The notes beneath the pieces are model-generated. The model ran no database searches. It was not told where the DNA came from and saw nothing but the letters and a program-made list of their open reading frames with translations. Below are positions 853 to 20,667 of a DNA stretch of 25,009 nt, piece after piece (position 1 is the first letter of the stretch; each line of letters opens with the position of its first letter). Made by a program: the position numbers and the translations under genes. The stretch comes from a virus: positions 1-25,009 of the IMG/VR virus record IMGVR_UViG_3300025671_000484. The stretch is one strand, 5' to 3'.

Positions 853-2037
853 ATGACACAAGCACTACTAGAAGGCCGTTGGGGCGAAACAAAAGATGCC
901 CTGCTAGAAGGTCTACAAGGTTCCAAGAGAACCACAATGGGTGTTATCCTAGAAAACACTCGCAAGCATTTGGCAGAAGCTGCTACAGCAGGCGCAACCG
1001 CTGCTGGTAACGTTGCTACACTAAACCGTGTAATTTTACCAGTAATTCGACGTGTTATGCCTACAGTTATTGCTAACGAAATCGTTGGTGTTCAACCAAT
1101 GACAGGACCTGTTGCACAGATCCACACTCTACGTGTTCGTTATGCTGAAACTGCTACAAGCACAGCACCTGCACCATTCGACACAAGCACAACCGCTGGT
1201 GACGAAGCACTGAGCCCATTTAAGATTGCCACAGCATATTCCGGTAGTTTATCTACAGGTCGTGCTGCTAGTACAACAGCACTAGAAGGCAACCCAGGAC
1301 GTAAAATCAACGTTCAAATCTTGAAGCAGGTTGTAGAAGCCAAGACACGTAAGCTAAGCGCACGTTGGACATTTGAAGCTGCCCAAGATGCACAAAGCAT
1401 GCATGGTCTTGACGTTGAAGCAGAAATCATGGCTGCTCTAGCACAAGAGATTACCGTTGAAATCGACCAAGAAGTTCTAGGTAGTCTACGTGCGCTAGCC
1501 GCTACTGACTTCACATACAACCAGGCAACAGTATCTGGTACCGCTACATTCGTTGGTGACGAACACGCTGCTCTAGCTGTTCTAATCAACCGCAGTGCAA
1601 ACTTGATTGCACAGCGTACACGTCGCGGCGCAGGTAACTGGGCAGTTGTAAGTCCAGCCGCTCTAACAGTACTACAGAGCGCAACAACTTCTGCTTTCGC
1701 ACGTACCACAGAAGGTACATTCGAAGCACCTACAAACACCAAGTTTGTTGGTACACTAAACGGCGCAATGCGTATCTACGTAGACAGCTATGCAGCAGAC
1801 ACAACTGCTGTTCTAGTTGGTTACAAAGGTTCCAGCGAGGCTGATGCCGCAGCATTCTACTGCCCATACATTCCATTGATGAGCAGTGGTGTTGTTCTAG
1901 ACCCAGCAACATTCGAACCAGTCGTAGGCTTTATGACTCGTTATGGATATGTTGAGTTGACAAACACAGCATCTTCTCTAGGTAACGCAGGCGACTACCT
2001 AAGTGAGATTAATGTAAGCAACCTAAGCTTCCAGTAA
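853..2037 (+). CDS. 23: T4 gp23-like major capsid protein
   Basis: Forms the hexameric shell of the phage head. The N-terminal part contains VILENTRKHL (residues 31-40) and then a block with LPVIRRVMP and GVQPMTGP (about residues 62-85). That block is the most conserved signature of T4-type gp23 and is followed by a region ending in LRVRYAE. At 394 residues it is clearly shorter than T4 gp23 (521), as in far-diverged relatives, so parts of the insertion domain are probably missing. AGGAG at 838-842 lies 10 bases before the ATG, only 24 bases after the scaffold gene, so the two are probably cotranscribed. L/I-x-E tripeptides at residues 5-7, 17-19, 32-34 and 40-42 are candidate sites for gp21-type maturation cleavage, and which is used cannot be seen. 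Leucine is mostly written CTA. Transcription ends at the hairpin at 2069-2093. Confidence 0.92.
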   Translation: MTQALLEGRWGETKDALLEGLQGSKRTTMGVILENTRKHLAEAATAGATAAGNVATLNRVILPVIRRVMPTVIANEIVGVQPMTGPVAQIHTLRVRYAETATSTAPAPFDTSTTAGDEALSPFKIATAYSGSLSTGRAASTTALEGNPGRKINVQILKQVVEAKTRKLSARWTFEAAQDAQSMHGLDVEAEIMAALAQEITVEIDQEVLGSLRALAATDFTYNQATVSGTATFVGDEHAALAVLINRSANLIAQRTRRGAGNWAVVSPAALTVLQSATTSAFARTTEGTFEAPTNTKFVGTLNGAMRIYVDSYAADTTAVLVGYKGSSEADAAAFYCPYIPLMSSGVVLDPATFEPVVGFMTRYGYVELTNTASSLGNAGDYLSEINVSNLSFQ

Positions 2038-2971: not shown

Positions 2972-2976
2972 CAGTT

Positions 2977-3451: not shown

Positions 3452-3453
3452 CA

Positions 3454-3470
3454 ATCATTATCGTAATGAT
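3454..3470 (+). other. Small perfect hairpin just after the 136-residue gene
   Basis: ATCATTA and TAATGAT pair perfectly around a TCG loop, starting 3 bases after the stop codon and 4 bases before the terminator stem. It lacks a T tail. It may protect the 3' end of the message or assist the terminator. Confidence 0.45.
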
Positions 3471-3474
3471 GAAG

Positions 3475-3500
3475 ATAGGCCTGCAAGGGCCTATTTTTTT
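3475..3500 (+). terminator. Rho-independent terminator after the 136-residue gene
   Basis: ATAGGCC (3475-3481) pairs with GGCCTAT (3488-3494) around a TGCAAG loop, and seven T residues follow (3494-3500). It separates the small virion gene from the fibre block. Confidence 0.9.
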
Positions 3501-3525
3501 GGTAGAACCTTAATAATCAAAAACA

Positions 3526-3533
3526 AATAAATA
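3526..3533 (+). promoter_or_regulatory. T4-type late promoter box for the giant fibre gene
   Basis: AATAAATA differs from the T4 late consensus TATAAATA at the first base. It lies 28 bases before the giant gene's ATG and directly after a terminator, which makes it the natural start of the fibre transcript. Confidence 0.6.
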
Positions 3534-3561
3534 CTCTATAGTTCTAAAAACCGGATAAAGA

Positions 3562-6500
3562 ATGGCGCAAGAAATCATTGACTTAGGTGATGGTCCAGAT
3601 AGTAACTCTGGTGATTCACTCTATACCGCATTTACCAAAACAAACAGTAACTTTACAGAGTTATACACAATTATTGGTAGCAACAGTACGACAAATTTAA
3701 CCGGTAATACAATTACTGCAAATTATTTTTATACTACTGGCAATTTACGAGTTGGTAATATCAATGGTTTTGGAAATTTAAGCACTATTGGCAATATTAT
3801 TGGGACGGGATATTTTTATCCTAACGGTCAAAGTGTTTTTAGTAACATTCAAGCAGATTTGACTAGCATTAAGTCTGATGTACTACCTCAGACTACAGCA
3901 ACTTATACACTCGGTAGTATTTCTAAAGAATGGGCAGAACTTTATCTCAGCAATAATGTAACTTTGCGCGGCACAAATATTTCTGTAGATAATGGAACTC
4001 TCACAGTCAATGGTGTAGTAGTAAGTGGTAATTACAGCAATGCAAACGTTGCTAGCTACTTGCCAACTTATACAGGCAATATAGGTGCTGGTAATGTCAT
4101 CGTTAGCACAGATGTTATTGCTACTGGTAATGTTAGTGCAGCCTACTTTATTGGTAATGGTAGTCAACTAACTGGTTTAGGTGAAATTACATATGGCAAT
4201 GCCAATGTTGCTAATTACTTGCCTACATACACAGGTAATTTAGATAGTTTGGCTGGTAATGTAATTACTACTGCTAATGTTACTGCTGCTTATTTTATTG
4301 GTAATGGTAGTCAACTCGAAGGACTGCCTGCTTCTTATTCAAACGCAAACGTAGCCAGTTATTTGCCAACGTATAGTGGTAACCTTGACAGTGTCGACGG
4401 TATAACTGCAAACAGTATTAGTGCAACAGAATTTATTGGCAACATTATCCCAAGCGCCAACGTTACTTACAATTTGGGAAGTTCAGATTTTAGATTTAAA
4501 GATTTATTCTTAAGTGGAAGTACTATTAACTTAGATGGTGCATCAATTAGTGCCAACAATACCGCAGTGATTATTACAACTGCTGAAGGTGGTGCATTTG
4601 TTATTCAAGGATCTGAAGATGCAACAACATATAGAATTCAAAATGGCACTTCTAATGTTGACATTCCTGCTAGTGACGGAAATATTTTAATTTCAGTTAA
4701 CGGTGAATCGATAGCAACTTTTTCTTCCTTAGGTTTAGAAGTTGTTGGAAACATTACACCTGGTAATGTAGATACCGCAGGCAATGTTACAGCCAGTTAT
4801 TTCTTTGGTAATGGTAGCCAATTAGACGGACTTACAGAATTAAGTGTAAACTTTGCAAACACTGCGGGTACTGCCGAGTTCGTAACCAATGCTACACAGG
4901 CAAACATTACCAGTGTTGGCACATTGACCAGTCTGACATTAAGTGGTACACTAACTGGCACTACAGTAGAAGCAGCACAAATTGGTAATAGTGGTGCTAC
5001 ATTAACAGGTACACTAGACACTGCAGCACAAACAAATATAACTAGTGTTGGTACACTAACTGGTTTGACTCTAAGTGGTGCTATTACAGGAACGGTTGTT
5101 AATGCTGCTACTGTTGGTAATGCTGCTACACAACTAGTCGGCGAAACGCTAGATACAAGTGCAAATGCCACAGTAAATGGATTAACTGTTAACACTAGTG
5201 CAACAGTGGGAACAACATTAGGCGTTACTGGAAATATTATTGCAGGTAATGTCGAAGCCACAAATTTAGTTGGCACATTAGAAACTGCCAGTCAACCCAA
5301 CGTAAATGAATTAGCAAACGCAGTTACAATTGGTGAGATTACAATTGGTAGTAACAGTATTACCAGCACACATGACACTATCACAATTGATCCTAGCACA
5401 GAAGGCAGTGGCGGCCTAGTTGTAATTGAAGGTAATTTACGAGTAACTGGTAATGTAACTTACATTGATAGTAATGTTGTAAGTACAAATGATTTAGACA
5501 TTATTGTCGCTAATAATAGAACAACTAGTGCAGACATAGACGGCGCAGGTATATTAGCAGGTAATGTTGGTGGTCAAGGTATCGCAACTTGGGTATATAA
5601 TCATGCTACTACCAGTTGGCGCTCAAATGTAGGGATAACACCTCAAGGTAATGCTGCACTAAGTTTTGGTGGTACAAATAATTATTGGAGTACAGGCTAC
5701 TTTAACGCCATCGAAGCACCAAGTATTACTGGTGTACTACAAACACCACAACAGACAAATATAACCAGTGTTGGTACACTAACTGGACTGACATTGAGCG
5801 GAACTCTGACAGGCACTACTGTTAATGCTGCTCAAATTGGTAACACAGGTGCAACCCTAACTGGTACAATTCAGACAGCCAGTCAAACTAACATTACCAG
5901 TGTTGGTACACTAACCGGACTAACACTAAGTGGCACACTAACTGGTACAACCATAAACGCTGCCACAATTGGAAATAGTGGTGCAGCAATTACTGGTAGT
6001 ACATTGACTGGCACTATACAGACTGCTAGTCAACCAAATATAACCAGTGTTGGTATACTAACTGGACTGACATTAAGTGGTATATTAGACGGCACTACTA
6101 TTCGTGCAGCCATTATTGGTAATGCAGGTGCTGCACTAACTGGAACTATTCAAACAGCAGCACAACCAAATATTACCTCAGTTGGCACTCTAACAGGATT
6201 AAATTTAAGCGGCACACTGAATGCCCCAACTGTACAAGCAGCAACCATTGGTAACACCGGCGCTGCATTCACGGGCGCTACTTTAAACACCACTTCTAAT
6301 GCAACTATTAATGCGTTAACAATAAACAACAGTGCTACAATTGGTACTGATTTAGGTGTTACTGGCAATGTGTCTGCTAGTTATTTTTTAGGTAATGGTG
6401 CATTATTAGATGGACTAGGAGGAGTTAGTGTAAGTTTTGCCAATACAGCAGGTGTTGCACAATACGTCAGCGAAGCAGCACAGGCAAATATTACCAGTGT

Positions 6501-9500
6501 TGGTGTATTGACTGGCGCCACCCTGTCAGGAACATTGACTGGCACCACAGTAGAAGCAGCGCAAATTGGTAACACAGGCGCAATCTTAACTGGTACGTTA
6601 GATACCGCTGCTCAAACAAATATAACGCAAGTTGGTACACTGACTGGATTAACATTATCAGGCACGTTAAACGGAACAACTGTACAAGCAGCGCAGATTG
6701 GTAATTCAGGCGCTACATTAACTGGAACAATCAATACTCCAGCACAGACAAATATTAATCAACTTGCTGACGAAGTAACTATTGGTGAGATCACAATTGG
6801 CAGCAATAGTATTGTAAGCACACATAGCGTAATTACAATTGATCCCGCAAGTGCAGGTCAAAATGGATTAGTTGTAATTGAAGGAAACTTACAAGTCACA
6901 GGTAACGTAACTTATGTTGATAGTGGAACTATAATTATCAACGACAAAGACATTATTGTTGCTAATAACCAAACAACGAGTGCTGGTATTGATGGTGCTG
7001 GTATACTAGCAGGTAATGTGGGTGGAGCAGGAGTTGCAACCTGGATATACAATCATGCTACCACAAGTTGGCAAAGTAACGTCGGAGTAACTCCGGTTGG
7101 TAACGCCAGTTTAAGCCTCGGTGGCACCAGTAACTACTGGAGTACAGGTTACTTTAATGCAATTGAAGCACCAAGCGTCACAGGTGTACTTCAAACAGCA
7201 AACCAGACTAACATTACGTCAGTAGGAACACTAACCGGACTTACACTAAGTGGTACACTAACTGGCACTGACATTAATGCTGCTACAATTGGTAATACTG
7301 GTGCCACATTAATTGGTGATGGTAGTGCTTTAACCAGTTTAACTGGCGCAAATGTTACAGGAACAGTTGCTAACGCCACATATTCTCTTGAAGCAGGTAA
7401 CAGTAATACAGCAAACACAGCAGGTACTGCCGGGTATGTAACAGAAGCAGCACAAGCAAATATTACCAGTGTTGGTACACTAACCGGTTTGACACTAAGT
7501 GGTGCGTTAACAGGAACAACTGTTAATGCCGCAACAATCGGTAACACAGGTAGTACTATATTTGGCGCAACAGTTGAAAGCACTGCAAATGCCACTGTAA
7601 ATGATATTACAATCAACAATAGTGCTACAATTGGTACAACATTAGATGTTACCGGAAATATAATTGCTGGTAATGTTGATTCAACTGGAAATATATCTGC
7701 CAGTTACTTTTTTGGTAATGGTAGTCAATTAGGTGGATTAACAGAACTAAGTGTTAATTATGCTAACACTGCAGGAACTGCTGAGTACGTAACAAATGCT
7801 ACACAGAGCAACATTACAGCAGTCGGTACACTAATAGGATTAACACTTAGTGATACGTTAACCGGTACTACTTTAGAAGCTGCTCAAATTGGTAACAGTG
7901 GTGCTACGTTAACAGGAACTTTAGATACTGCTGCTCAAACTAATATCACATCAGTAGGCACACTAACTGGACTAACTTTAAGTGGTACACTAACCGGTAC
8001 TGCTATTAATGCTGCTACCATTGGTAATACAAATACTACACTAACAGGAACGTTATCCACTGTAAGCCAGCCAAATGTAACCTCACTAGGAACACTAACT
8101 GGACTTACACTAAGTGGTACATTAACAGGTACCACAGTAGAAGCAGCACAAATAGGTAATTCGGGCGCTACCCTGACAGGCACTTTAGATACTGCTGCTC
8201 AAACTAATATTACATCAGTTGGAACACTAACAGGACTAACTTTAAGTGGTACACTAACCGGTACCGCAGTGGAAGCAGCAACTATTGGTAACTCAGGTGC
8301 TACGCTAACAGGTACGTTAAGCACTGCTGCACAGACTAATATCACTAGTGTTGGAACACTAACTGGTTTAACACTAAGTGATACACTTACTGGTACAACT
8401 ATAAATGCTGCTACAATTGGTAACTCAGGTGCAACACTAACAGGCACGGTAAGCACCGCTGCTCAGCCAAATATCAACGAACTTGCGGATGCGGTAACAA
8501 TAGGTGAAATAACTATTGGCAGCAACAGTATCACAAGTACACACAGTGTAATTACTATTGATCCAAGCACTGCTGGAAGTGGTGGATTGGTAGTAATTGA
8601 AGGCAACTTGCAGGTTACAGGTAACGTAACTTACATTGACAGCAATATTGTCAGCACCAATGACTTAGACATTGTTGTTGCAAATAATAGATCAACTAGT
8701 GCAGATATTGATGGCGCTGGTATATTAGCAGGTAATGTGGGTGGTGAAGGAATAGCAACCTGGACATATAATCATGCAACTACTAGTTGGCAAAGCAACG
8801 TTGGTATAACTCCACTAGGTAATGCAGCGTTAAGTTTTGGTGGAACCAATAATTATTGGTCAACAGGATACTTTGATGTGTTGCAAGTTGGTGGTAATGT
8901 CACTGCCAATTACTTCTTTGGTAATGGAAGCCAATTAGATGGACTATCAGACCTAAGCGTAAATTATGCCAATACCGCAGGAACAGCTGAATATGTAACA
9001 AATGCTACACAGAGTAACATTACAGCAGTTGGTACACTAACTGGCTTAACATTAAGCGGTGGATTAACAGGAACAACAGTCAGCGCAGCCACTATTGGTA
9101 ACAGTGGTGCTACACTAACAGGTACATTGAGCACTGCGGCGCAGACAAACATTACATCAGTTGGTACTTTAACCGGACTTACACTAAGTGGTACACTAAC
9201 TGGAACCACTGTAGAAGCAGCTCAAATAGGTAATTCGGGCGCCACACTAACTGGTACTTTGAATACCGCTGCACAAACCAACATCACATCAGTAGGTACA
9301 CTAACTGGATTGACATTAAGCGGTACACTAACAGGTACGACGATTAATGCAGCCATAATTGGTAACAGTGGTGCAGCCATTACTGGTAGTACTTTAACAG
9401 GTACTTTACAAACTGCTGCACAAACAAATATTACTAGCGTAGGCACTTTAACTGGACTAACACTAAGTGGCACATTAACAGGTACCGCAGTAGAAGCAGC

Positions 9501-12500
9501 AACTATTGGTAACTCAGGTGCTACACTAACAGGAACATTGAGCACCGCGGCCCAGACAAATATCACATCTGTTGGTACACTAACTGGCTTAACATTATCA
9601 GGAACACTAACTGGTACTACAGTAGAAGCAGCTCAAATTGGTAATAGTGGTGCTACATTAACCGGTACATTAGACACCGCTTCTCAAACAAATATAACAT
9701 CGGTTGGTACGCTAACCGGATTGACACTAAGTGGTGCATTAACAGGTACAACTGTAAGTGCTGCTACTATTGGTAACACTGGTGCTACCTTGACAGGTAC
9801 GCTGAGTACTGCGGCGCAGACAAACATAACCTCACTAGGAACACTAACTGGGCTAACACTAAGTGGCACACTAACTGGTACTAGCGTAGAATCTGCAACT
9901 ATTGGTAATAGCGGATCTCAGTTAACTGGTACATTACAAACTGCTAGCCAAACAAATATTACAGAAGTTGGAACACTAACTGGCTTAACCTTAAGTGGTA
10001 CATTAAACGGAACTACAGTACAAGCAGCCATAATTGGTAACATTGGTGCTGCATTTACTGGCGCCAGTGCAACAATTACTACAATTAATGGCACAAATTT
10101 AAATGGCGCATTGGGTTCCGGCGGCGGCAATACTGCTATTGTAAGCACACTAAGTGCCACAGGTAATGCCACAGTTAATGCATTGTCTGTAAACAACAGT
10201 GCTACAGTTGGTTCGACACTAGGTGTAACTGGTGTTACAACAATTACAGACACAACACAGGCAACCGCTACAACCAACGGAGCATTGGTAGTCGCAGGTG
10301 GCGTTGGTATTGCCAAAGATGTACATATTGGCGGTACAGTTCTTATTAGCCAGGATACAACAATCGCAGGCAACTTAACAGTTGAAGGCAATACTACTAT
10401 TATCGGTGCAAATAATCTTGCTGTCACAGACAACTTGATTGAAATGCACACTGATGCCAACTTAACTCCATTAACTGAAGATGATGGTAGAGACATTGGC
10501 TTCAGAATGCACTACTACAAAACGCAAAACGACAATGCTGCGTTAATTTGGAGTAATGACGAACAGAATTTAGAATGGTATGGTAGTGGTGCAGGAGGCG
10601 ATGCTAACGTCATCAATCACAGTACTGCTGTTTATGGAAATATTAAAACTGGTAACTTGGTACTGATTGGTAGTAGTGATCCAGGTGGCGCCAACGTTGA
10701 TGGAACACGCAGTACCAGTGTAAGCACAGGTGCTTTAGTACTACAAGGTAACAGTGGTATTGGCGTTGGAGGTAACATCCATGCTGGTGGAAATGTAACT
10801 GCTACTTACTTCTTGGGAGATGGTAGCCAATTAAGTAACCTAAGTGGTTTAAGTGTTAATTTTGCTAATACTGCAGGCACTGCTGAATATGTAACAAATG
10901 CGACTCAGAGTAACATTACCGCAGTTGGAACTCTTACTGGCTTAACATTAAGTGGTGGATTAACAGGAACAACTCTTAACGCATCTCAGATTGGTAATAG
11001 TGGAGCAACATTAACTGGTACATTAGATACTGCTAGCCAAACAAACATTACAGAAGTTGGTACGCTAACTAGTTTAATTTTGAGCGGTACGCTAACTGGC
11101 ACAGCCATTACAGCAGCCACCATTGGTAATTCGGGATCGCAACTAACTGGCACATTACAAACATCGGCACAAACTAATATTACTAGTGTTGGTACACTAA
11201 CCGGACTCACTTTAAGTGGTACATTGACAGGTACAACTGTTGAAGCAGCACAGATAGGTAACTCAGGTGCAACTTTAACAGGTACGTTAAGCACTGCTGC
11301 CCAAACCAACATCACATCGGTAGGTACACTAACTGGACTGACACTAAGTGGCACTTTAACAGGCACTACGGTAGAAGCAGCACAGATTGGTAATAGTGGT
11401 GCAACATTAACTGGTACACTAGATACTGCTGCACAAACTAATATTACATCAGTAGGTACACTAACAGGATTAACACTAAGCGGTAACCTAGACGGCACAA
11501 ATATCAACGCAGCCAGTGTTGGCAACGTAGGTACAACAATTACAGGTACATTACAAACTGCAAGTCAAACTAATATTACAAGCGTTGGCACACTAACCGG
11601 GCTAACTTTGTCAGGAACATTAACTGGTACTGCAATTGAAGCCGCTAGCATTGGTAACACAGGAGCAACATTAACTGGCACGTTACAGACTGCAAGTCAA
11701 ACCAATATTACCTCAGTTGGAACACTAACTGGATTAACATTAAGCGGTACATTGACAGGTACCACAGTAGAGGCTGCACAAATAGGAAATAGTGGTGCTA
11801 CATTAACAGGTACATTAAGCACTGCCGCTCAAACTAATATTACATCAGTTGGAACACTAACTGGATTAACTTTAAGTGGTACATTAACTGGTACTGCTAT
11901 TGAAGCAGCAACTATCGGTAATAGTGGATCACAGTTAACAGGCACATTACAAACTGCCGCACAAACGAATATTACTAGTGTTGGTACATTAACTGGCTTA
12001 ACTTTGAGTGGCACACTAACCGGTACAACTGTTGAAGCAGCACAGATAGGTAATACCGATGCTACTCTAACAGGTACACTTAGCACCGCAGCACAGCCTA
12101 ACATTAACTCCTTAGCCGATTCTGTAACTATTGGCGAAATTACAATAGGTAGCAATAGTATTACCAGCACACATAGTGTAATTACAATCGATCCAAGTAC
12201 TGCCGGCAGCGGCGGATTGGTAGTAATTGAAGGTAACCTGCAAGTTACTGGTAATGTAACTTACATCGACAGTAATGTTGTCAGCACCAATGACTTAGAT
12301 ATAGTTGTTGCTAATAACCAAACTACAAGTGCTGGTATTGACGGCGCTGGTATACTAGCAGGTAATGTAGGCGGCGAGGGTATTGCTACTTGGATATACA
12401 ATCACGCCACTACTAGTTGGCGTTCAAATGTAGGTATAACACCTGCGGGTAATGCAAGTTTAAGTTTAGGCGGAACTAGTAATTACTGGGATACTGGATA

Positions 12501-14694
12501 TTTCAATGCTATCCAAGCACCAAGTATTACTGGTGTATTGCAAACTGCTGCACAAACCAATATTACATCAGTAGGCACATTAACTGGACTAACATTAAGT
12601 GGTACACTAACTGGTACGACGGTAGAAGCTGCTCAAATTGGTAACAGTGGAGCAACACTAACAGGTACATTAAGTACAGCAGCCCAAACTAATATTACCA
12701 GTGTTGGTACACTAACTGGATTGACTCTAAGTGGTACACTAACTGGTACTACTGTTAATGCTGCTACTATCGGTAACGCTAGTGCAGCACTAATTGGTGC
12801 AACATTAGACACAAGCGGCAACGCTACGGTAAATGAACTAACTGTAAACAGTACCACTACAATTGGAAGCACATTAGGCGTTACAGGCAATATTGCTGGT
12901 AGTGGAATAACATTAACAGGCGATGTAACGGCAGTTCAGTTAGGAACTACAGGTAACATTACCAGCGGAAGTTACTTGTTTGGTAACGGTAGATTTATTG
13001 AAGGTATTACTGTTGAAGCAGGATCTTCAATCACTAACGGAACAAGTAATGTAGTTGTTGAGGGTAGTGGTAACGTTAATACCAGTGTAAGTGGCATTCA
13101 AAACGTTTTTGTAGTTGCAGCAGACGGCGCACATACAAGCAACTTATTCCTGTCAGACACATTTACTGGAACCACAGTAAATGCTGCACAAATAGGAAAT
13201 AGTGGTGCTACACTAACTGGTACATTAGACACAGCCGCACAAACTAATATTACTAGTGTCGGTACACTAACAGGACTTACACTAAGTGGTACATTAACTG
13301 GAACAACTGTAGAAGCCGCACAGATTGGTAATACTGGCGCTTCGTTAACAGGTACTTTACAAACTGCTGCTCAAACCAACATTACATCAGTAGGTACACT
13401 AACTGGATTGACACTAAGCGGCACATTAACCGGCACAACACTAGAAGCTGCTACTATTGGCAATTCTGGTGCAAGCATAATAGGCGACGGTAGTCAATTA
13501 ACTAGTTTAACAGGCGCTAATGTAACTGGAACGGTAGCCAATGCAACTTATGCAGACAGCACTGGCAGTGCAGGAACTGCAACAACGGCAGGAACTGCTG
13601 AGTACGTAACAAATGCCACACAGGCAAATATTACCAGTGTTGGCACATTAACTTCGCTAACCCTGTCAGGAACACTAACTGGAACTACCGTAGAAGCAGC
13701 ACAGATAGGCAATAGTGGAGCAACTTTAACAGGAACTCTTGACACTGCTGCTCAAACCAACATTACATCAGTGGGTACGCTAACTGGACTCACTTTAAGT
13801 GGTACATTGACAGGTACAACTGTTGAAGCAGCACAGATAGGAAATAGCGGTGCTACACTAACAGGAACTCTTGACACTGCTGCCCAAACTAACATTACGT
13901 CAGTAGGTACACTTACTGGTTTAACACTAAGTGGAACATTAACTGGTACAACTGTAAATGCTGCTACTATTGGTAATGCCAGCGCGGCACTAATCGGCGC
14001 CACTTTAGATACAAGTGGTAACAGTACTGTAAATGCAATAACCATTAATAACAGTGCTACAATTGGAACAACGCTAGGAGTAACTGCTAACGTAACTGCT
14101 AACAGTTACATTATTGCTGGAGATGGAGTTTTCTGGAGCAATGGCGATCCTTATAGTTCAGGTGGTGGCGGCGGCACTACAACAGTAAGCAATACCGCAC
14201 CAAGTAGCCCAAGTCAGGGTGACATATGGATTGACAGTGACAGTGGTATACAATTTATCTACTTCAATGATGGTGACAGCAGTCAGTGGGCTGAAATGCA
14301 GGCAGAACTTTCGTTTAGCAACGGCAGCGGCAGTGGAGGCAATGTTGATTTAAGTGCAGTTGCTCAAAGCATTATTCCTGCTGCAAATGTAACTTACGAC
14401 TTAGGTAGTGCAAGTTACCAATGGCGTGATTTGTTCCTGTCAGGAAATACAATTAATCTTGGCGGAGCAACTATAAGTACAGACGCCAGCACTGGTGCTA
14501 TTGCACTGATGCCGCAACCAACAGAAGCTAATCCAAACCCCAGTGGTATTGTGGTTAGTCCTGCAGGTGGAGTTGTAACAGTTGCTAGTACTGGAGGTAA
14601 CATTGATGCAAACGCTTTTGCCAACGCAGGTAACGAAACTGGATCAGTTACAAGTACAGCGTTTGCATTCTCAATATTATTTGGAGGTTTATAA
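3562..14694 (+). CDS. Giant repeat-built tail-fibre-like protein (3710 residues)
   Basis: Probable virion fibre; at 3710 residues it is nearly three times T4 gp34 (about 1290). The N-terminus (1-40) carries the GDSLYTAFTKTNSNFTELY motif found at the start of many T4-like structural proteins. Next come modules with NVTASYFFGNGSQLDGL-like motifs, then 39 copies by my count of a 44-residue unit with core TNITSVGTLTGLTLSG and a second half like VEAAQIGNSGATLTG. Four ~140-residue modules (starting near residues 588, 1072, 1645 and 2855) and a related one (about 2224-2350, GALVVAGGVGIAKDVHIGG then DIGFRMHYY) interrupt the array. The C-terminus follows GVFWSNGDPYSSGGGGG with a W-containing segment, a LGSASYQWRDLFLSG motif and a small hydrophobic tail. 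Charged residues are rare, and Gly, Thr, Asn, Ala and Leu dominate. The ribosome site (GGATAAAG) is weak. A beta-helical or beta-rich trimeric rod is inference. The stop overlaps the next ATG by one base (TAATG). Confidence 0.8.
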   Translation: MAQEIIDLGDGPDSNSGDSLYTAFTKTNSNFTELYTIIGSNSTTNLTGNTITANYFYTTGNLRVGNINGFGNLSTIGNIIGTGYFYPNGQSVFSNIQADLTSIKSDVLPQTTATYTLGSISKEWAELYLSNNVTLRGTNISVDNGTLTVNGVVVSGNYSNANVASYLPTYTGNIGAGNVIVSTDVIATGNVSAAYFIGNGSQLTGLGEITYGNANVANYLPTYTGNLDSLAGNVITTANVTAAYFIGNGSQLEGLPASYSNANVASYLPTYSGNLDSVDGITANSISATEFIGNIIPSANVTYNLGSSDFRFKDLFLSGSTINLDGASISANNTAVIITTAEGGAFVIQGSEDATTYRIQNGTSNVDIPASDGNILISVNGESIATFSSLGLEVVGNITPGNVDTAGNVTASYFFGNGSQLDGLTELSVNFANTAGTAEFVTNATQANITSVGTLTSLTLSGTLTGTTVEAAQIGNSGATLTGTLDTAAQTNITSVGTLTGLTLSGAITGTVVNAATVGNAATQLVGETLDTSANATVNGLTVNTSATVGTTLGVTGNIIAGNVEATNLVGTLETASQPNVNELANAVTIGEITIGSNSITSTHDTITIDPSTEGSGGLVVIEGNLRVTGNVTYIDSNVVSTNDLDIIVANNRTTSADIDGAGILAGNVGGQGIATWVYNHATTSWRSNVGITPQGNAALSFGGTNNYWSTGYFNAIEAPSITGVLQTPQQTNITSVGTLTGLTLSGTLTGTTVNAAQIGNTGATLTGTIQTASQTNITSVGTLTGLTLSGTLTGTTINAATIGNSGAAITGSTLTGTIQTASQPNITSVGILTGLTLSGILDGTTIRAAIIGNAGAALTGTIQTAAQPNITSVGTLTGLNLSGTLNAPTVQAATIGNTGAAFTGATLNTTSNATINALTINNSATIGTDLGVTGNVSASYFLGNGALLDGLGGVSVSFANTAGVAQYVSEAAQANITSVGVLTGATLSGTLTGTTVEAAQIGNTGAILTGTLDTAAQTNITQVGTLTGLTLSGTLNGTTVQAAQIGNSGATLTGTINTPAQTNINQLADEVTIGEITIGSNSIVSTHSVITIDPASAGQNGLVVIEGNLQVTGNVTYVDSGTIIINDKDIIVANNQTTSAGIDGAGILAGNVGGAGVATWIYNHATTSWQSNVGVTPVGNASLSLGGTSNYWSTGYFNAIEAPSVTGVLQTANQTNITSVGTLTGLTLSGTLTGTDINAATIGNTGATLIGDGSALTSLTGANVTGTVANATYSLEAGNSNTANTAGTAGYVTEAAQANITSVGTLTGLTLSGALTGTTVNAATIGNTGSTIFGATVESTANATVNDITINNSATIGTTLDVTGNIIAGNVDSTGNISASYFFGNGSQLGGLTELSVNYANTAGTAEYVTNATQSNITAVGTLIGLTLSDTLTGTTLEAAQIGNSGATLTGTLDTAAQTNITSVGTLTGLTLSGTLTGTAINAATIGNTNTTLTGTLSTVSQPNVTSLGTLTGLTLSGTLTGTTVEAAQIGNSGATLTGTLDTAAQTNITSVGTLTGLTLSGTLTGTAVEAATIGNSGATLTGTLSTAAQTNITSVGTLTGLTLSDTLTGTTINAATIGNSGATLTGTVSTAAQPNINELADAVTIGEITIGSNSITSTHSVITIDPSTAGSGGLVVIEGNLQVTGNVTYIDSNIVSTNDLDIVVANNRSTSADIDGAGILAGNVGGEGIATWTYNHATTSWQSNVGITPLGNAALSFGGTNNYWSTGYFDVLQVGGNVTANYFFGNGSQLDGLSDLSVNYANTAGTAEYVTNATQSNITAVGTLTGLTLSGGLTGTTVSAATIGNSGATLTGTLSTAAQTNITSVGTLTGLTLSGTLTGTTVEAAQIGNSGATLTGTLNTAAQTNITSVGTLTGLTLSGTLTGTTINAAIIGNSGAAITGSTLTGTLQTAAQTNITSVGTLTGLTLSGTLTGTAVEAATIGNSGATLTGTLSTAAQTNITSVGTLTGLTLSGTLTGTTVEAAQIGNSGATLTGTLDTASQTNITSVGTLTGLTLSGALTGTTVSAATIGNTGATLTGTLSTAAQTNITSLGTLTGLTLSGTLTGTSVESATIGNSGSQLTGTLQTASQTNITEVGTLTGLTLSGTLNGTTVQAAIIGNIGAAFTGASATITTINGTNLNGALGSGGGNTAIVSTLSATGNATVNALSVNNSATVGSTLGVTGVTTITDTTQATATTNGALVVAGGVGIAKDVHIGGTVLISQDTTIAGNLTVEGNTTIIGANNLAVTDNLIEMHTDANLTPLTEDDGRDIGFRMHYYKTQNDNAALIWSNDEQNLEWYGSGAGGDANVINHSTAVYGNIKTGNLVLIGSSDPGGANVDGTRSTSVSTGALVLQGNSGIGVGGNIHAGGNVTATYFLGDGSQLSNLSGLSVNFANTAGTAEYVTNATQSNITAVGTLTGLTLSGGLTGTTLNASQIGNSGATLTGTLDTASQTNITEVGTLTSLILSGTLTGTAITAATIGNSGSQLTGTLQTSAQTNITSVGTLTGLTLSGTLTGTTVEAAQIGNSGATLTGTLSTAAQTNITSVGTLTGLTLSGTLTGTTVEAAQIGNSGATLTGTLDTAAQTNITSVGTLTGLTLSGNLDGTNINAASVGNVGTTITGTLQTASQTNITSVGTLTGLTLSGTLTGTAIEAASIGNTGATLTGTLQTASQTNITSVGTLTGLTLSGTLTGTTVEAAQIGNSGATLTGTLSTAAQTNITSVGTLTGLTLSGTLTGTAIEAATIGNSGSQLTGTLQTAAQTNITSVGTLTGLTLSGTLTGTTVEAAQIGNTDATLTGTLSTAAQPNINSLADSVTIGEITIGSNSITSTHSVITIDPSTAGSGGLVVIEGNLQVTGNVTYIDSNVVSTNDLDIVVANNQTTSAGIDGAGILAGNVGGEGIATWIYNHATTSWRSNVGITPAGNASLSLGGTSNYWDTGYFNAIQAPSITGVLQTAAQTNITSVGTLTGLTLSGTLTGTTVEAAQIGNSGATLTGTLSTAAQTNITSVGTLTGLTLSGTLTGTTVNAATIGNASAALIGATLDTSGNATVNELTVNSTTTIGSTLGVTGNIAGSGITLTGDVTAVQLGTTGNITSGSYLFGNGRFIEGITVEAGSSITNGTSNVVVEGSGNVNTSVSGIQNVFVVAADGAHTSNLFLSDTFTGTTVNAAQIGNSGATLTGTLDTAAQTNITSVGTLTGLTLSGTLTGTTVEAAQIGNTGASLTGTLQTAAQTNITSVGTLTGLTLSGTLTGTTLEAATIGNSGASIIGDGSQLTSLTGANVTGTVANATYADSTGSAGTATTAGTAEYVTNATQANITSVGTLTSLTLSGTLTGTTVEAAQIGNSGATLTGTLDTAAQTNITSVGTLTGLTLSGTLTGTTVEAAQIGNSGATLTGTLDTAAQTNITSVGTLTGLTLSGTLTGTTVNAATIGNASAALIGATLDTSGNSTVNAITINNSATIGTTLGVTANVTANSYIIAGDGVFWSNGDPYSSGGGGGTTTVSNTAPSSPSQGDIWIDSDSGIQFIYFNDGDSSQWAEMQAELSFSNGSGSGGNVDLSAVAQSIIPAANVTYDLGSASYQWRDLFLSGNTINLGGATISTDASTGAIALMPQPTEANPNPSGIVVSPAGGVVTVASTGGNIDANAFANAGNETGSVTSTAFAFSILFGGL
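5323..5750 (+). repeat. ~140-residue fibre module, copy 1 (subtype A)
   Basis: It starts VTIGEITIGSNS and runs through GLVVIEGNL, TYIDSNVVSTNDLDI, GAGILAGNVGG and YNHATTSW to ITGVLQTP. Subtype A is defined by an STxGSGGL-like segment and IDSN-VSTNDLD. The module replaces part of the short-repeat array. Confidence 0.8.
6775..7200 (+). repeat. ~140-residue fibre module, copy 2 (subtype B)
   Basis: It has the same architecture as copy 1 but carries ASAGQNGL and YVDSGTIIINDKDI, the variant also found in the second fibre gene at 19360. It ends VTGVLQTA. Confidence 0.8.
8494..8890 (+). repeat. ~140-residue fibre module, copy 3 (subtype A, different end)
   Basis: Subtype A sequence (STAGSGGL, YIDSNIVSTNDLD). 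After STGYFD it leaves the shared pattern and continues as VLQVGGNVTANYFFGNGSQLDGL instead of the usual ITGVLQTA link. Confidence 0.8.
10231..10620 (+). repeat. Diverged fibre module (GALVVAGGVGIAKD / DIGFRMHYY type)
   Basis: This in-frame segment encodes TNGALVVAGGVGIAKD, then EGNTTIIGANNLAVTDNLIEMH and DIGFRMHYY with ALIWSNDEQNLEWYG. The pattern is familiar from long fibre and baseplate proteins of T4-like marine phages. It occupies the same structural slot as the ~140-residue modules but is only distantly related to them. Confidence 0.65.
12124..12549 (+). repeat. ~140-residue fibre module, copy 4 (subtype A)
   Basis: It starts VTIGEITIGSNS, has STAGSGGL and YIDSNVVSTNDLD, and ends ITGVLQTA before the array resumes. 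The second half (QTTSAGIDGAGILAG, NASLSLGGTSNYW) matches subtype B copies better, which suggests a mosaic. Confidence 0.8.
14683..14687 (+). promoter_or_regulatory. Strong ribosome site of the 119-residue gene inside the giant gene
   Basis: GGAGG lies 6 bases before the ATG at 14694, within the last codons of the giant fibre gene. It is the best Shine-Dalgarno in the fibre block and lets the small protein be made in amounts different from the fibre. Confidence 0.7.
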
Positions 14695-15053
14695 TGGCTA
14701 CACCTAATATCTTAGGTCTAACAACAGTAAATGGCAACACTACAGTACAGAGTTGTACAACAAGCGCCACCGCTATAGTTGAAAACGCTGCTGACAGTGG
14801 AAAGATTTACAAAATTAACAGTTTGATTATCTCAAACATAGATGGCACAAGTTCAGCTGATATCACTGTGGATTTATATCGCAGTAGTACTGCATATCAT
14901 ATAGTGAAAACAGTAGCGGTAGCAGCAGACAGTGCATTTAATGCAATTGACAAAACTGGCACAATTTATTTACTTGAAGGTGATGCACTAAGATGCACCG
15001 CCAGTGCCGATGGTGATTTACAGGCAGTATGTTCATTCGAGGAAATGTCTTAA
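14694..15053 (+). CDS. Small phage structural protein (119 residues, MATPNILGLTTV type)
   Basis: It resembles a recurrent ~120-residue structural protein of marine T4-like phages that begins MATPNILG-T-V and contains SGKIYKINSLIISN, IYLLEGDALRC and a final SFEE. The fold appears to be a single beta domain: alternating hydrophobic strands, few helices, no signal or membrane segment. The start overlaps the stop of the giant fibre gene by one base (TAATG) and has a strong GGAGG ribosome site, so it is probably coupled to it. The next gene begins two bases after its stop codon. A role as a fibre- or baseplate-associated subunit is inferred from its position between the fibre and the LamG adhesin. 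Confidence 0.75.
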   Translation: MATPNILGLTTVNGNTTVQSCTTSATAIVENAADSGKIYKINSLIISNIDGTSSADITVDLYRSSTAYHIVKTVAVAADSAFNAIDKTGTIYLLEGDALRCTASADGDLQAVCSFEEMS

Positions 15054-15054
15054 C

Positions 15055-17943
15055 ATGAGAAATTCAGGCCTTAAAGGAAAACGAGCAGCCGATCAAACGG
15101 GAATTGTTTCTTTAGCATCACAGTTTAACCAAACAGAATATCTAATACCAAAAATTACTGGTTATACTGTTGATGGTAGTGTTAAACAACTCGATCCTGC
15201 AGGCGGCGAGGAAATAGTACTTCAAGGCAGTGGTTTTAAATCTGGTGCAACAGTAAGAGTTGATAATGCACAAATAGGTTCTGTAACTATTACACCAACT
15301 ACACTAACTTTTACCAGTCCTGCTAAAACATCAGGGACTTATACTGTATATGCAACTAATCCAAATGGAGGCACGGCAGCATTGGTGCCAGGTTTGGTTT
15401 ATGACGGACTGCCAACTTGGAGTAGTCCGGCAGCAGACAGCGAACTTGGCCCATACTATGAAACTACCAGTATAAACAATACTTTTGTGGCAGAAGAAGG
15501 TGGTGATTCGATAACTTATAGTCTTTATAGTGGTAGTTTGCCGTCGGGTGCTACGTTAGATGCTAACACTGGAAATTTAACCGGAACTGCACCTGTAGAC
15601 AGTAATACAACAACTTACAGTTTTACCATTCAGGCACAAGATGAAGAAAATCAGACAGCTTTACGTTCATTTACATTAACGGTAAACACTGATGTAGTTA
15701 CTTGGAGTCTGCCTGCCAGCGACGCACAGAGTTTAACTGCGAATACAGCAATGAGTAATTTAACATTGGTAGCCACTAGTGGTGCAGGTTATGGAGTGCT
15801 TTACACAGCAAATAGTTTACCAAATGGCTTAAGTCTTTCAGGCGACACTATTAGTGGCACACCAACTGATGTTGGAACTGAGTACACACTGTTGACTGCT
15901 ACTGCTAATACAACTACAAGAACTGCTACAAAAACAATTACGTGGACCATTAGTGTTGCTGATACGGGTGATGCGTATTTTGCTGATACTAATGCACTTA
16001 TACAAGGCATAGCTACGGCACAAACTGCTGACAATAGCGTAGTCACTGATCATTCCAGTAATAGCATTACTATGACTGTGTCGGGCAACCCTTATTCGGG
16101 CGCAGCCAGCCCATATTATGAACCACCTCCCAGTGTGTATTTTGATGGCAGTTCTTATCACAGTTGGACACTTGATGCTAATTGTACCTGTACAGGCGAT
16201 TTTACGCTTGAGTTTTGGTGGTACAACAATCATACAACTTGGGGCAATTATGGAATCATGGGCGGCTCCTTTGGCTCTAAACCAGCAATCTATGGAGACA
16301 GCGGTGGCATATTGCACTTGTATGACGGCACAGTAAACCTTACATTTAGTGGCGGCACAAGAAATGCCTGGCACCATTTTGCAATCGTAAAAAGTGGTAG
16401 TGGATCAAACAACATAAAAGCCTATCGTGATGGCGCACAAGTAGGAATAACTACATCCAGTTCAACAATTGATTTTTCCGGAACTTTTTATGTTGGGTAT
16501 AGCACCAGTTACAGTTATACACCTAAAGGGTATATTTGCCAACTAAGATTGGTTAACGGCACAGCTGTGTATACTTCCGCGTTTGATCCACCTACACACA
16601 GTTTAGAAAAAATTGCAAATACCGAGTTCTTGGCTTATGCCGGTCCTTGGATGGGCGATATTAGTGATAATGCTTTTGCTACATCTGTAACAGGTTGGCC
16701 TTATTCAAACTCCTCAACGCCAATGACTGCTGGCCCTGTTTACAATGCCTACGATCCTGCCAGCCACGCCGGCGCAATGTATTTTGACGATAGTGGAGAT
16801 TATGTAACTTCATCAGCCAGTTTAACTCATAAACCAACTGGTGATTTTACAATGGAGTGTTGGTTTAAACCAGATGGAACGTTTGATAACACGAACGGCA
16901 TTTTTACATTAGGAACTAATACCAATCAATCCTATAGTATTGCAATAGTAGGTGCAAGCAGCTCAACTGGGGCTATTGCTTTTTGGGTTAACGGATTTAA
17001 CGGTACTACGACTTCATCCACTGGGCTTGCAAAAATAGGCGTATGGCAACACGTTGCTTTGGTTAGAAACGGCACAACAAATACATTATACTTAAATGGT
17101 CAGAGTGTAGCAACTAATACAAACACACCATCATTTACTGGTACTCCTACTTTCAGATTAGCCTCAAGGTATGCAGATAATCCTAACGAAATATTTAAAG
17201 GATGGCTCAGCGATTTTAGATATACAAAAAGTGCAGTTTATACGTCTAACTTTACGCCACCATCAAGTGCATTAGCCAGCGGGTCTGCTTATCTTGCTGT
17301 TCCTTTTAGTGATGCTGACATTTACGACGGTTCTGGTGTCAACAATATAAATCTTAACGCCAGCGTGGCACTCAGTGACAGTGTTAAAAATTTTGGAAAT
17401 ACTTCAATTAATTTTGGCACGTCTGGATCTAATTATATGCGTCTATGGCACAGCACTTCCAGCATACCAACTTTAATTACTACAGGCACAGGAGCATTTA
17501 CTTTAGAATGGTGGATGTATTGTAATTCTGGAACAGGCAGAACACTTAGAATACAATGGAAGTCAGGTTACTTGGCAGTGACAGATACTACAGGTGCTTA
17601 CGCAGTTATGAGTAGCCTTGGTGATAATAACACTGGCTATAGTAATATTATAGACAGTGATACTGCTATATCAGCGCAAACATGGACTTATTGTGCTTTG
17701 GTAAGAACCGCAGCAGGAACGCTTACACTTTACCAAGGAACATCAGGATCAACGGCTAATGTGGGAGCAAGTACTTCAGCGTTGGGCAACAGTTTTGACG
17801 TAGGATTTTGGGGTGCAAGAGCAGGGACATCGACTCAAGAAATGAATGGATATTTAGACGATATTAGATTCACTAAAGGTGTAGCAAGAGATGTAACTTC
17901 GGTACCGACCTCGGCTCTACCCAATAAGTTAAGTACCTCATAA
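15055..17943 (+). CDS. Multidomain adhesin-like structural protein: TIG, two Ig-like, three LamG domains (962 residues)
   Basis: I chose the ATG at 15055 rather than the in-frame ATG at 15004. The former starts one base after the upstream stop (15051-15053), has GAGG at 15039-15042, and avoids a 50-base overlap. Domain order: N-terminal anchor (1-32); IPT/TIG-like fold (about 33-116, with GSGFKSGATVRVD); two putative Ig domains of the He_PIG type (about 120-212 and 215-302, with LPSGATLDANTGNLTGT and LPNGLSLSGDTISGTPTD). Three concanavalin-A/LamG-like domains follow (about 359-529, 572-749, 779-959), each with FTLE(F/C)W-like and WxHxAxV-like strands and a closing R-x-x-x-(G/S)-x-A-V-Y-T-S-x-F motif, degenerate in the third. 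LamG-like folds commonly bind glycans, so host-surface attachment is the likely role (inference). No transmembrane segment is visible. Confidence 0.8.
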   Translation: MRNSGLKGKRAADQTGIVSLASQFNQTEYLIPKITGYTVDGSVKQLDPAGGEEIVLQGSGFKSGATVRVDNAQIGSVTITPTTLTFTSPAKTSGTYTVYATNPNGGTAALVPGLVYDGLPTWSSPAADSELGPYYETTSINNTFVAEEGGDSITYSLYSGSLPSGATLDANTGNLTGTAPVDSNTTTYSFTIQAQDEENQTALRSFTLTVNTDVVTWSLPASDAQSLTANTAMSNLTLVATSGAGYGVLYTANSLPNGLSLSGDTISGTPTDVGTEYTLLTATANTTTRTATKTITWTISVADTGDAYFADTNALIQGIATAQTADNSVVTDHSSNSITMTVSGNPYSGAASPYYEPPPSVYFDGSSYHSWTLDANCTCTGDFTLEFWWYNNHTTWGNYGIMGGSFGSKPAIYGDSGGILHLYDGTVNLTFSGGTRNAWHHFAIVKSGSGSNNIKAYRDGAQVGITTSSSTIDFSGTFYVGYSTSYSYTPKGYICQLRLVNGTAVYTSAFDPPTHSLEKIANTEFLAYAGPWMGDISDNAFATSVTGWPYSNSSTPMTAGPVYNAYDPASHAGAMYFDDSGDYVTSSASLTHKPTGDFTMECWFKPDGTFDNTNGIFTLGTNTNQSYSIAIVGASSSTGAIAFWVNGFNGTTTSSTGLAKIGVWQHVALVRNGTTNTLYLNGQSVATNTNTPSFTGTPTFRLASRYADNPNEIFKGWLSDFRYTKSAVYTSNFTPPSSALASGSAYLAVPFSDADIYDGSGVNNINLNASVALSDSVKNFGNTSINFGTSGSNYMRLWHSTSSIPTLITTGTGAFTLEWWMYCNSGTGRTLRIQWKSGYLAVTDTTGAYAVMSSLGDNNTGYSNIIDSDTAISAQTWTYCALVRTAAGTLTLYQGTSGSTANVGASTSALGNSFDVGFWGARAGTSTQEMNGYLDDIRFTKGVARDVTSVPTSALPNKLSTS

Positions 17944-17970: not shown

Positions 17971-20667
17971 ATGCCTTTAAATTTTCCAAACAGTCCCAGT
18001 CTAAATGACACCTATACCTTTGGTACAAAAACCTGGATATGGAACGGTGCCGCTTGGAAACTTAAAACGGACGGCGCTATTAACGATATTCCAATCGGTA
18101 ACAGTTCTCCCAGCACCGGTGCATTTACTACACTGAGCGCCACTGGAACGTTTACTGGTACAACAGTAGAAGCAGCACAGATTGGCAATTCAGGCGCCAC
18201 ACTAACTGGTACTTTAGATACTGCAAGCCAACCAAACGTAACCAGCCTAGGTACGCTAACCGGGCTAACTCTGTCAGGTACGCTAACTGGAACAACTGTT
18301 GAAGCAGCACAAATAGGTAACAGTGGTGCCACACTAACTGGCACATTAAGTACGGCCGCTCAAACAAATATTACTTCACTAGGAACACTAACCGGATTAA
18401 CTTTAAGTGGGACACTAACGGGCACCACGGTAGAAGCGGCCACAATTGGTAATACCGGCGCAACACTTACAGGTACATTAAGCACCGCTGCACAAACCAA
18501 TGTTACAAGTCTTGGAACTTTAACCGGTTTAACTTTATCAGGAACACTGACAGGTACAACTATTGAGGCAGCACAAATAGGTAATTCAGGTGCAACACTA
18601 ACTGGCACACTAAGCACCGCTGCTCAAACTAACATCACTTCACTAGGCACATTAACAGGGCTAACTTTATCAGGAACACTAACAGGTACAACTATTAATG
18701 CCGCTACAATTGGTAATAGTGGAGCAAGTTTAGTTGGATCATTGACAGGTGACGTAACTGGAACTGCAGCCGCAGCAACTACAGTTGTAACAACACTAAC
18801 CGGTACATCAGCGAACTATTACATTCCGTTTTCACTAAGTGGCGCTACGACAGGCAATGCATCGTTGGGTATTGACTCAGGACTTTATTACAACCCCGGC
18901 ACCAATTATCTTTACTATACTACGCTATCTGGTACAAGCATTTACGCAAGAGTTATTGATTTCTCAGATGGCAGTTCTTCTGTAGACCATTTAAGGTTTG
19001 GTAATTCAGATGACGCTAAGTTCTTCTACAATGGCACTCCCAACACAATGGAGTTGGACCTCGCAACCGGCGCACAAAGTTTTATTATTACAGATGCGGG
19101 CACCACACGATTTACGTTTGAAAAAGCAACTGGCAATTTAACTGCTGGCAATGTCATTGCTACTGCTTTTACTGGCGACGGAAGCGCATTAACCAGCATC
19201 ACAGGTGCTAATGTAACCGGAACAGTAGCCAATGCCACTTACGCCGACAGCACTGGTAGCGCCGGCACTGCAACTTCTGCTACTACAGCAGGCACTGCTC
19301 AGTATGTAACAGAAGCTTCGCAACCAAACATTACCAGTGTAGGTTCCAGCCTTACTACAGGCGAGATTACAATTGGTAGTAACAGTATTACCAGCACACA
19401 CGACACAATTACTATCGATCCAGCAAGTGCAGGACAAAATGGTTTAGTCGTTATTGAGGGCAATCTGCAAGTTACAGGTAACGTAACTTACGTTGATAGT
19501 GGGACTATTGTAATAAATGACAAAGACATTATCGTTGCCAATAACCAAACAACTAGTGCTGGTATTGACGGTGCTGGTATATTAGCAGGTAATGTCGGTG
19601 GAGTTGGTGTCGCAACTTGGATATATAATCACGCTACTACAAGTTGGCAAAGCAATGTTGGTGTAACACCTGCAGGTAACGCTAGTTTGAGTTTAGGAGG
19701 AACCAGCAACTATTGGAGTACTGGTTATTTCGATGCTATTCAAGCGCCAAGCATTACTGGTGTATTGCAAACTGCTGCTCAGACAAATATTACAAGTTTA
19801 GGTACGCTGACTGGACTTACACTCAGTGGTACGCTAACAGGAACAACTATAAATGCTGCCGCAATTGGTAACACAGGTGCAACACTAACAGGCACAATAC
19901 AAACAGCAGCACAGACAAATATAACCAGTTTAGGTACATTAACCGGATTGACACTAAGTGGGACACTTACCGGTACAACCATAAATGCTGCTGCAATTGG
20001 TAATTCAGGCGCTACACTGACAGGTACAATACAAACCGCAGCCCAAACAAATATCACTTCACTTGGAACTTTAACAGGTTTAACTTTATCGGGTACACTA
20101 ACTGGTACAACGGTAGAAGCTGCTACAATCGGTAATAGTGGAGCAACTCTCACTGGTACATTGAGTACAGCAGCACAAACCAATGTTACTAGTTTAGGCA
20201 CATTAACTGGACTTACACTAAGTGGAACACTGACTGGTACAACTGTTGAAGCCGCACAGATAGGTAATAGTGGAGCCACGTTAACAGGTACACTTGATAC
20301 AGCAGCACAAACAAACATCACATCAGTTGGTACGCTAACTGGACTAACATTAAGTGGAAATGTGTCAGGAACTAACTACATAGCCTCAGGAAACGTTAAC
20401 GCCAGTAGTTATATTATCGAAGGTGATGGTGTTTTTTGGAGCAACGGTGATCCTTACAGTTCAGGCGGCGGCGGCGCTGGTGGCTATTTTAACAGTACAT
20501 TAACATCGTTCCCAGGATCTGCTGGTAACAGTGATTATGGATCAGGCGAAACATATGTAGGGGAAAGTTCGTCATTCGATGCTTTTTTAATTCCGCTTAT
20601 TCCTAACTACGACATGAACGATCCTTCAGGTTCTTTAGAAACAGTTGATCTCGGAGTCCTGACATAA
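17971..20667 (+). CDS. Second repeat-built tail-fibre-like protein (898 residues)
   Basis: Probable virion fibre related to the giant protein by repeat exchange. The N-terminus (MPLNFPNSPSLNDTYTFGTK, then W-x-W-NGAAWKLK) is a fibre start common in marine T4-like phages and differs from that of the giant protein. It is followed by PIGNSSPSTGAFTTLSATG. Full 44-residue repeats 1-4 begin near residue 88. Residues ~255-450 are unique, including RFGNSDDAKFFYNG and a FIITDAGTTRFTFEKATGN segment typical of fibre proteins. One ~140-residue module of subtype B follows, then repeats 5-9, a YIIEGDGVFWSNGDPYSSGGGG junction and a distinct acidic, aromatic tip (about 833-898). Eight of nine repeats read SLGTLTGL where the giant protein mostly reads SVGTLTGL. 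The ribosome site (AAGAG) is weak. A receptor-binding tip at the C-terminus is inference. Confidence 0.8.
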   Translation: MPLNFPNSPSLNDTYTFGTKTWIWNGAAWKLKTDGAINDIPIGNSSPSTGAFTTLSATGTFTGTTVEAAQIGNSGATLTGTLDTASQPNVTSLGTLTGLTLSGTLTGTTVEAAQIGNSGATLTGTLSTAAQTNITSLGTLTGLTLSGTLTGTTVEAATIGNTGATLTGTLSTAAQTNVTSLGTLTGLTLSGTLTGTTIEAAQIGNSGATLTGTLSTAAQTNITSLGTLTGLTLSGTLTGTTINAATIGNSGASLVGSLTGDVTGTAAAATTVVTTLTGTSANYYIPFSLSGATTGNASLGIDSGLYYNPGTNYLYYTTLSGTSIYARVIDFSDGSSSVDHLRFGNSDDAKFFYNGTPNTMELDLATGAQSFIITDAGTTRFTFEKATGNLTAGNVIATAFTGDGSALTSITGANVTGTVANATYADSTGSAGTATSATTAGTAQYVTEASQPNITSVGSSLTTGEITIGSNSITSTHDTITIDPASAGQNGLVVIEGNLQVTGNVTYVDSGTIVINDKDIIVANNQTTSAGIDGAGILAGNVGGVGVATWIYNHATTSWQSNVGVTPAGNASLSLGGTSNYWSTGYFDAIQAPSITGVLQTAAQTNITSLGTLTGLTLSGTLTGTTINAAAIGNTGATLTGTIQTAAQTNITSLGTLTGLTLSGTLTGTTINAAAIGNSGATLTGTIQTAAQTNITSLGTLTGLTLSGTLTGTTVEAATIGNSGATLTGTLSTAAQTNVTSLGTLTGLTLSGTLTGTTVEAAQIGNSGATLTGTLDTAAQTNITSVGTLTGLTLSGNVSGTNYIASGNVNASSYIIEGDGVFWSNGDPYSSGGGGAGGYFNSTLTSFPGSAGNSDYGSGETYVGESSSFDAFLIPLIPNYDMNDPSGSLETVDLGVLT
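18232..18735 (+). repeat. 132-bp repeats 1-4 of the second fibre gene
   Basis: Four units in a row, the first starting with PNVTSLG and the others with TN(I/V)TSLG. The fourth runs out into a unique segment at GASLVGSLTGD. A partial unit precedes them (from about 18150). Confidence 0.85.
19360..19772 (+). repeat. ~140-residue fibre module, copy 5 (subtype B)
   Basis: It matches copy 2 of the giant gene over ASAGQNGL, YVDSGTIVINDKD, the region before ATWIYNHATTSW, and SNVGVTP. It ends ITGVLQTA directly before repeats 5-9. Confidence 0.8.
19783..20380 (+). repeat. 132-bp repeats 5-9 of the second fibre gene
   Basis: Five units in a row. Only the last reads SVG in place of SLG, and it changes after TLSGN into the junction shared with the giant gene. 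Confidence 0.85.

Follow-up and report, generated by a model that had tools for sequence, protein, structure and literature searches.

A 3,710-residue repeat-built protein of an environmental T4-like phage as a probable baseplate-anchored long tail fibre

The window, meaning the whole stretch of DNA analysed here, comprises 25,009 bases (positions 1 to 25,009 of the IMG/VR record IMGVR_UViG_3300025671_000484) and carries a gene for a major capsid protein of the T4 gp23 type (853..2037, + strand) followed by a PfkB-family sugar kinase gene on the opposite strand (2099-2917, − strand), an insertion that sets the capsid gene apart from the fibre cassette. A terminator-like hairpin with a T run, identified by eye at 3470-3500, lies 3′ of a 136-aa ORF and just upstream of the fibre gene. 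The giant fibre ORF itself runs on the + strand from an ATG at 3562 to a stop at 14694, encoding 3,710 aa with no cysteine and with threonine making up 20% of the residues. In keeping with a preliminary description of the DNA, which had noted one uninterrupted frame filling about 45% of the window, the frame is open over 3,710 codons and takes up 44.5% of the window. The stop codon overlaps the start of a 119-aa ORF (14694..15053, + strand) for which neither Pfam nor PHROG gave a match. A small ORF also lies directly 3′ of the giant fibre gene in the related region G006 (110 aa; L198-L200), with no BLASTP similarity between the two small proteins at E ≤ 10.

Downstream, a 979-aa protein (15004..17943, + strand) contains LamG-like lectin domains in three stretches together with He_PIG and TIG domains, a composition that makes it likely to be surface-binding. 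This is followed by an 898-aa second fibre protein (17971..20667, + strand), which includes one copy of a domain, here termed domain X, that recurs in the giant ORF, and for which tblastn against phages with the low-complexity filter on returned two records. Next is a 181-aa protein with an Mtd_N domain (20698..21243, + strand), the C-terminal part of which matches PHROGs that also match two other proteins of G001, a genome of the same phage. The right end of the window is occupied by two genes on the − strand, encoding a T4 gp15-type tail sheath stabiliser (21656..23473) and a virion structural protein of the neck region (23473..24849) homologous to gp320 of PA5oct. Against 2.1 expected occurrences, the window has no copy of the T4 late promoter octamer.

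The best-scoring named relatives of the capsid protein, among the 20 listed of 2,489 records, are jumbo T4-like phages, with identities of 68.8% to Vibrio phage 2.275.O, 68.8% to Sinorhizobium phage Phosso and 66.5% to PA5oct. In G005 and G006 the capsid gene is followed in turn by the fibre cassette, the NUDIX gene, the gp15 gene and the neck-region gene (established mostly by eye, with gp15 by search), an order also found in PA5oct. In Vibrio phage 2.275.O and Phosso, the 20 kb around the capsid gene did not show it. The gp23-NUDIX-gp15 locus together with the same N-terminal fibre domain was found in G003, G005 and G006 (the domain by profile, gp15 by search and the neighbours by eye); of the G003 capsid gene, the region takes in just the end.

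Short-read assemblies can go wrong over 132-nt repeats, and on this general ground the repeat array of the giant ORF might be put down to misassembly or to a short-lived expansion, a reading that is scarcely credible given the contigs now compared. Two further contigs (L083 and L084), from IMG/VR assemblies 3300025889 and 3300034418, contain the whole ORF with 39 unit cores each and differ from the window by 12 and 18 SNPs with no gaps over 18.6 kb, while four partial contigs carrying the 5′ part have 20, 32, 32 and 32 cores up to the contig ends, concordant with the window. One of the partial contigs (L082) has two one-base gaps relative to the window, near position 1280 in the capsid gene, with none in the fibre ORF. 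The giant ORF is also without any exact 60-nt repeat, seven different 50-mers recurring within it, and the DNA of the units has diverged almost to the level of shuffled synonymous codons, such that the concordant contigs and the divergence together make an artefact very unlikely. A recent tandem expansion is ruled out as well, with unit pairs that are identical as protein sharing only 76.5-82.6% DNA identity in seven of seven pairs. Comparison of the contigs revealed 21 distinct changes, 11 of them synonymous, with five of the polymorphic sites inside units and 16 outside; the resulting pN/pS of 0.32, on small numbers of 21 changes only, supports the giant ORF being under purifying selection.

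The preliminary description had the ORF built from 39 near-identical units of 44 residues, of which the number stands and the uniformity, as stated, does not. The core pattern for NITSVGTLTGLTLS occurs 39 times in the giant ORF, whereas 1,000 shuffles of its residues gave no occurrence. The next unit follows at exactly 44 residues for 26 of the 39 units, and identity to the consensus averages 84% (range 57-100%), reaching at least 80% in 25 of the 39 and at least 90% in 16. A profile of the unit gave 40 matches in the giant ORF covering 1,736 of its 3,710 residues (46.8%), with a further 10 matches in the 898-aa neighbour. The remainder consists of the N-terminal anchor, four copies of the roughly 135-150-residue domain X, other fibre modules and the C-terminal region. 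Other spacings between units, of 37, 40, 54, 55 and 61, are also seen in relatives.

Reading along the + strand, units 1-2 (4903..5166) are followed by the first copy of domain X (5323..5718), a run of four units (5758..6300), a run of two (6487..6750), the second domain X (6775..7182), two single units (7210..7341 and 7459..7590), a run of five (7810..8469) and the third domain X (8494..8934). A run of eight units (9016..10086) then precedes the longest run, nine units at exact 44-residue spacing (10912..12099), after which come the fourth domain X (12121..12522), two runs of two units (12559..12822 and 13246..13509), a run of three (13627..14022) and the C-terminal region of residues 3539-3710 (14176..14691). 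By eye, the first part of this C-terminal region is like that of G003, with the last ~120 residues unlike.

The suggestion that the repeat motif is recurrent but poorly characterised is well founded, with no Pfam family, no PDB sequence match and a weak match of the full-length protein to PHROG 6942 "tail fiber protein" (4.9e-4), while the motif strings were absent from the literature searched. The full-length protein has no Pfam family at E ≤ 0.1, and the last 223 residues (14023-14691) gave no Pfam match, Peptidase_S74 being absent from the C-terminus. Full-length phmmer against PDB gave no match, though the N-terminal domain was also missed by the same search. A pattern scan of the genome contigs for relatives of the unit gave 106 pattern matches with 0 confirmed, and tblastn against phages returned 0 records for both residues 1-3000 and residues 1-440, with the low-complexity filter on, which is not proof of absence. 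The literature search listings on long or repeat-built fibres and on the unit motif strings held nothing on the giant protein.

A single-chain AF2 model of nine units reached a pLDDT of 50 with no usable fold, while the model of the third domain X (8458-8949) had a mean pLDDT of 77.6 and a best stretch of about 95. For domain X, Foldseek against PDB gave no match at E ≤ 0.001. Comparison by VIA gave Z ≥ 2 for five of 50 chains, including at least four phage endosialidases, the best Z of 2.6 being too weak to use. In BFVD, domain X had seven matches at E ≤ 0.001, of which four are nameless and three named, all of these phage proteins and including a virion structural protein of cyanophage S-TIM5, with algal virus proteins among the weaker rows.

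The N-terminus points to where the protein belongs. A scan of residues 1-167 matched residues 1-52 (3562..3717, + strand) to PHROG 677 "baseplate wedge tail fiber protein connector" (3.8e-8), although this family was not listed in the PHROG scan of the full-length protein, and the match of Pfam T4_gp9_10_N to residues 5-64 fell short of its cut-off (E 0.022, 15.2 of 25 bits). A profile of 17 related N-termini searched against PDB matched gp10 (4.5e-8, 8.5e-7 and 2.4e-4), the baseplate wedge tail fiber connector 9f4a (6.4e-6) and T4 gp9 (2.5e-5). In keeping with this, the N-terminal 100 aa of the G006 fibre found 409 phage records, and among the 40 listed 37 are annotated as baseplate wedge tail fiber connector and three as hypothetical protein. 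With the anchor-domain profile there was one clear match each in the regions of G001, G003, G005 and G006, in every case the giant fibre, whereas the 41-kb pieces of PA5oct, Vibrio phage 2.275.O and Phosso gave no match. For T4, an excerpt of PMC3004832 describes gp9 as binding gp7 through its N-terminal domain and as the protein to which the long fibres are coaxially attached.

The connector domain and the fibre are thus joined in one chain in the window. The chains of T4 gp9/gp10 and cyanophage gp9 (the PHROG 677 connectors), which are alike in the N-terminal ~50 residues, are 288-607 aa long, whereas here the domain is fused to about 3,650 further fibre residues. A fusion unique to this phage is ruled out, since many relatives have it. 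The same N-terminal domain is fused to a long chain in other environmental T4-like giant fibres (G003, G005, G006, L114, L137 and others), the fused examples outside the window's species ranging from 1,714 to 3,250 aa (L135, at 907 aa, left out). These differ from the window fibre in that other unit spacings also occur and many have few or no unit cores, while some relatives encode the domain in a gene of its own. Seven loci were chosen for a short frame with the anchor domain (L122, L124, L142, L151, L155, L164 and L182), and in all seven the short gene is immediately followed by a giant ORF with 0 or 1 unit core, the lengths ranging from 1,323 codons (truncated at the contig end) to 2,787. 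By eye, five of these seven giant ORFs begin like the window's 898-aa protein and unlike the shaft. Of 79 anchor-domain frames, a redundant set that includes the window, 41 have at least 1,500 codons and 24 fewer than 600, and this spread together with the seven loci indicates that split and fused forms both exist.

The giant ORF is therefore probably the gene for a long, baseplate-anchored tail fibre. Its phage would be a T4-like myophage, with jumbo phages as the nearest named capsid relatives. The preliminary description had called it a phage fibre, an assignment which the N-terminal matches and the split loci sharpen to a tail fibre anchored in the baseplate. The surrounding genes could be read differently, as the gp23 gene on one side and the gp15 and neck-region genes on the other would also suit a head or neck appendage, such as a capsid fibre or whisker. 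Such a placement is very unlikely given that the N-terminal domain is of the baseplate connector type and that in some relatives this domain is a separate short gene before the giant ORFs.

As a baseplate-anchored fibre, the protein would be seated in the baseplate by its first ~52 residues, as in proteins of the T4 gp9/gp10 type. Behind the anchor would follow a long shaft of 44-residue units, interrupted by the four copies of domain X; by analogy with T4 relatives this shaft is probably trimeric and beta-rich. The units would act as a spacer, with the variable C-terminal region probably touching the host, perhaps aided by the neighbouring lectin-like 979-aa protein. A little-described repeat motif found in environmental phages would thereby be placed in the shaft of fibres anchored at the baseplate.

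The T4 long tail fibre is alike in its presumed role, its attachment to the baseplate and its elongated, repeat-bearing chain, but T4 has separate connector and fibre genes (gp34-gp37 for the fibre) where the window has one chain. The shaft repeats of T4 gp34/36/37 are a further point of difference, the unit profile (A1) having no match among PDB chains at E ≤ 1. T4 fibre parts are presumably among those chains. One such part is PDB entry 5nxh, which appears in an excerpt of PMC10253068.

For T4, gp34 is 1,289 aa and 700 Å long with a distal half-fibre of 740 Å, according to the same excerpt of PMC3004832. Scaling these lengths per residue would give about 200-220 nm for a trimeric fibre made of 3,710-residue chains, compared to 144 nm for T4, this being the scaling of the present analysis. 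The chain might instead be cut, or be wrapped round the tail or itself, with no 200-nm rod being formed. Jumbo phages with wavy tail fibres and with an outer structure coiled around a tail sheath are described in the excerpts of PMC5348500 and PMC13282480, and the four copies of domain X could act as hinges. Nevertheless, cutting or wrapping is unlikely, there being no direct sign of either and the ORF being kept whole in three contigs. Whatever its shape, the protein is not of record length, larger phage proteins being known, and its supposed place among the longest phage proteins carries little weight beside a 7,124-aa protein of P-SSM7, a PHROG virion family whose profile has 6,136 positions and a 4,473-aa ORF in the same phage. 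The P-SSM7 protein, PSSM7_090 (54052-75426), is annotated as a structural protein of a T4-like phage and is likened to the window fibre by size and annotation only, its gene lying between gp6 and gp9, unlike the fibre gene of the window. The 4,473-aa ORF (G001:C1:49011-62429, with parts in L188 and L189) lies directly after a baseplate wedge gene, and its first 2,000 residues match giant virion or baseplate PHROGs.

In PA5oct the same place in the structural cluster is taken by gp324, "putative tail fiber protein H", which bears an ESI-MS/MS mark in its record. This protein is 1,008 aa long with Phage_fiber_2 repeats and a Peptidase_S74 domain, whereas the window fibre is without S74 and thereby also differs from the S74-chaperone fibres, which have this domain at their C-terminus. 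With a BLASTP E of 0.069 between gp324 and the giant ORF there is no recognisable homology, and gp324 is a positional counterpart only.

The units are considerably more alike as protein than as DNA. For 26 units, the mean amino-acid identity of 84% compares with a third codon position agreement of 46%, and DNA identity averages 71% (range 55-83%). The mean DNA identity of 0.714 is close to the mean of 0.697 obtained from 200 synonymous shuffles (sd 0.004, maximum 0.709), which suggests that the units are old and that purifying selection has preserved their protein sequence. Avoidance of shared codons as an active process is unsupported, as 0.714 lies slightly above, not below, the shuffle mean. 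Divergence this strong should protect the array against collapse through homologous recombination.

Comparison with the relative G003 suggests a possible second role for the units. Positions 1833-5081 and 20389-25009 align to G003 at 88.6-98.3% identity, while between 5083 and 20388 the only alignments at ≥84% identity are two short pieces (84.5-84.7%). On the left the similarity breaks off sharply, within unit 2 and immediately past its conserved core, at about 5083 (residue 508); the right edge of the exchanged region is less sharp. Unit 1 is 98.5% identical to that of G003 while the other 38 units have best identities of 66-85% among the G003 fibre units, without positional order. Conserved fibre motifs can act as recombination points in T-even phages. 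The in-unit junction suggests that the units may act as seams joining different fibre bodies, although one phage pair cannot show that junctions prefer units. The units would then serve as joining places for different fibre bodies even though their diverged DNA should keep the array from collapsing.

As a long tail fibre this is an ordinary object in an unusual form, with connector and fibre in one chain, a shaft uniform as protein whose synonymous DNA is nearly random, and, from inside a unit onwards, a fibre body unlike that of a relative. The combination of conserved protein, near-random synonymous codons and an in-unit junction makes it testable how phages keep long repetitive genes stable yet swap their host-recognition parts. 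A more speculative and rather doubtful proposal is that selection keeps the array uniform as protein and scrambled as DNA, the scrambling preventing recombinational loss of the ~1,700-residue shaft while the short unit cores stay as seams for the exchange of whole fibre bodies and tips between phages. If true, the array would be more than a spacer, serving also as a modular connector system for changes of host range.

Elsewhere in the genome of the same phage (G001, C1:69000-83500; L189 and L190) there is a run of proteins with paired cysteines that by eye resemble the SPASM/radical-SAM type.
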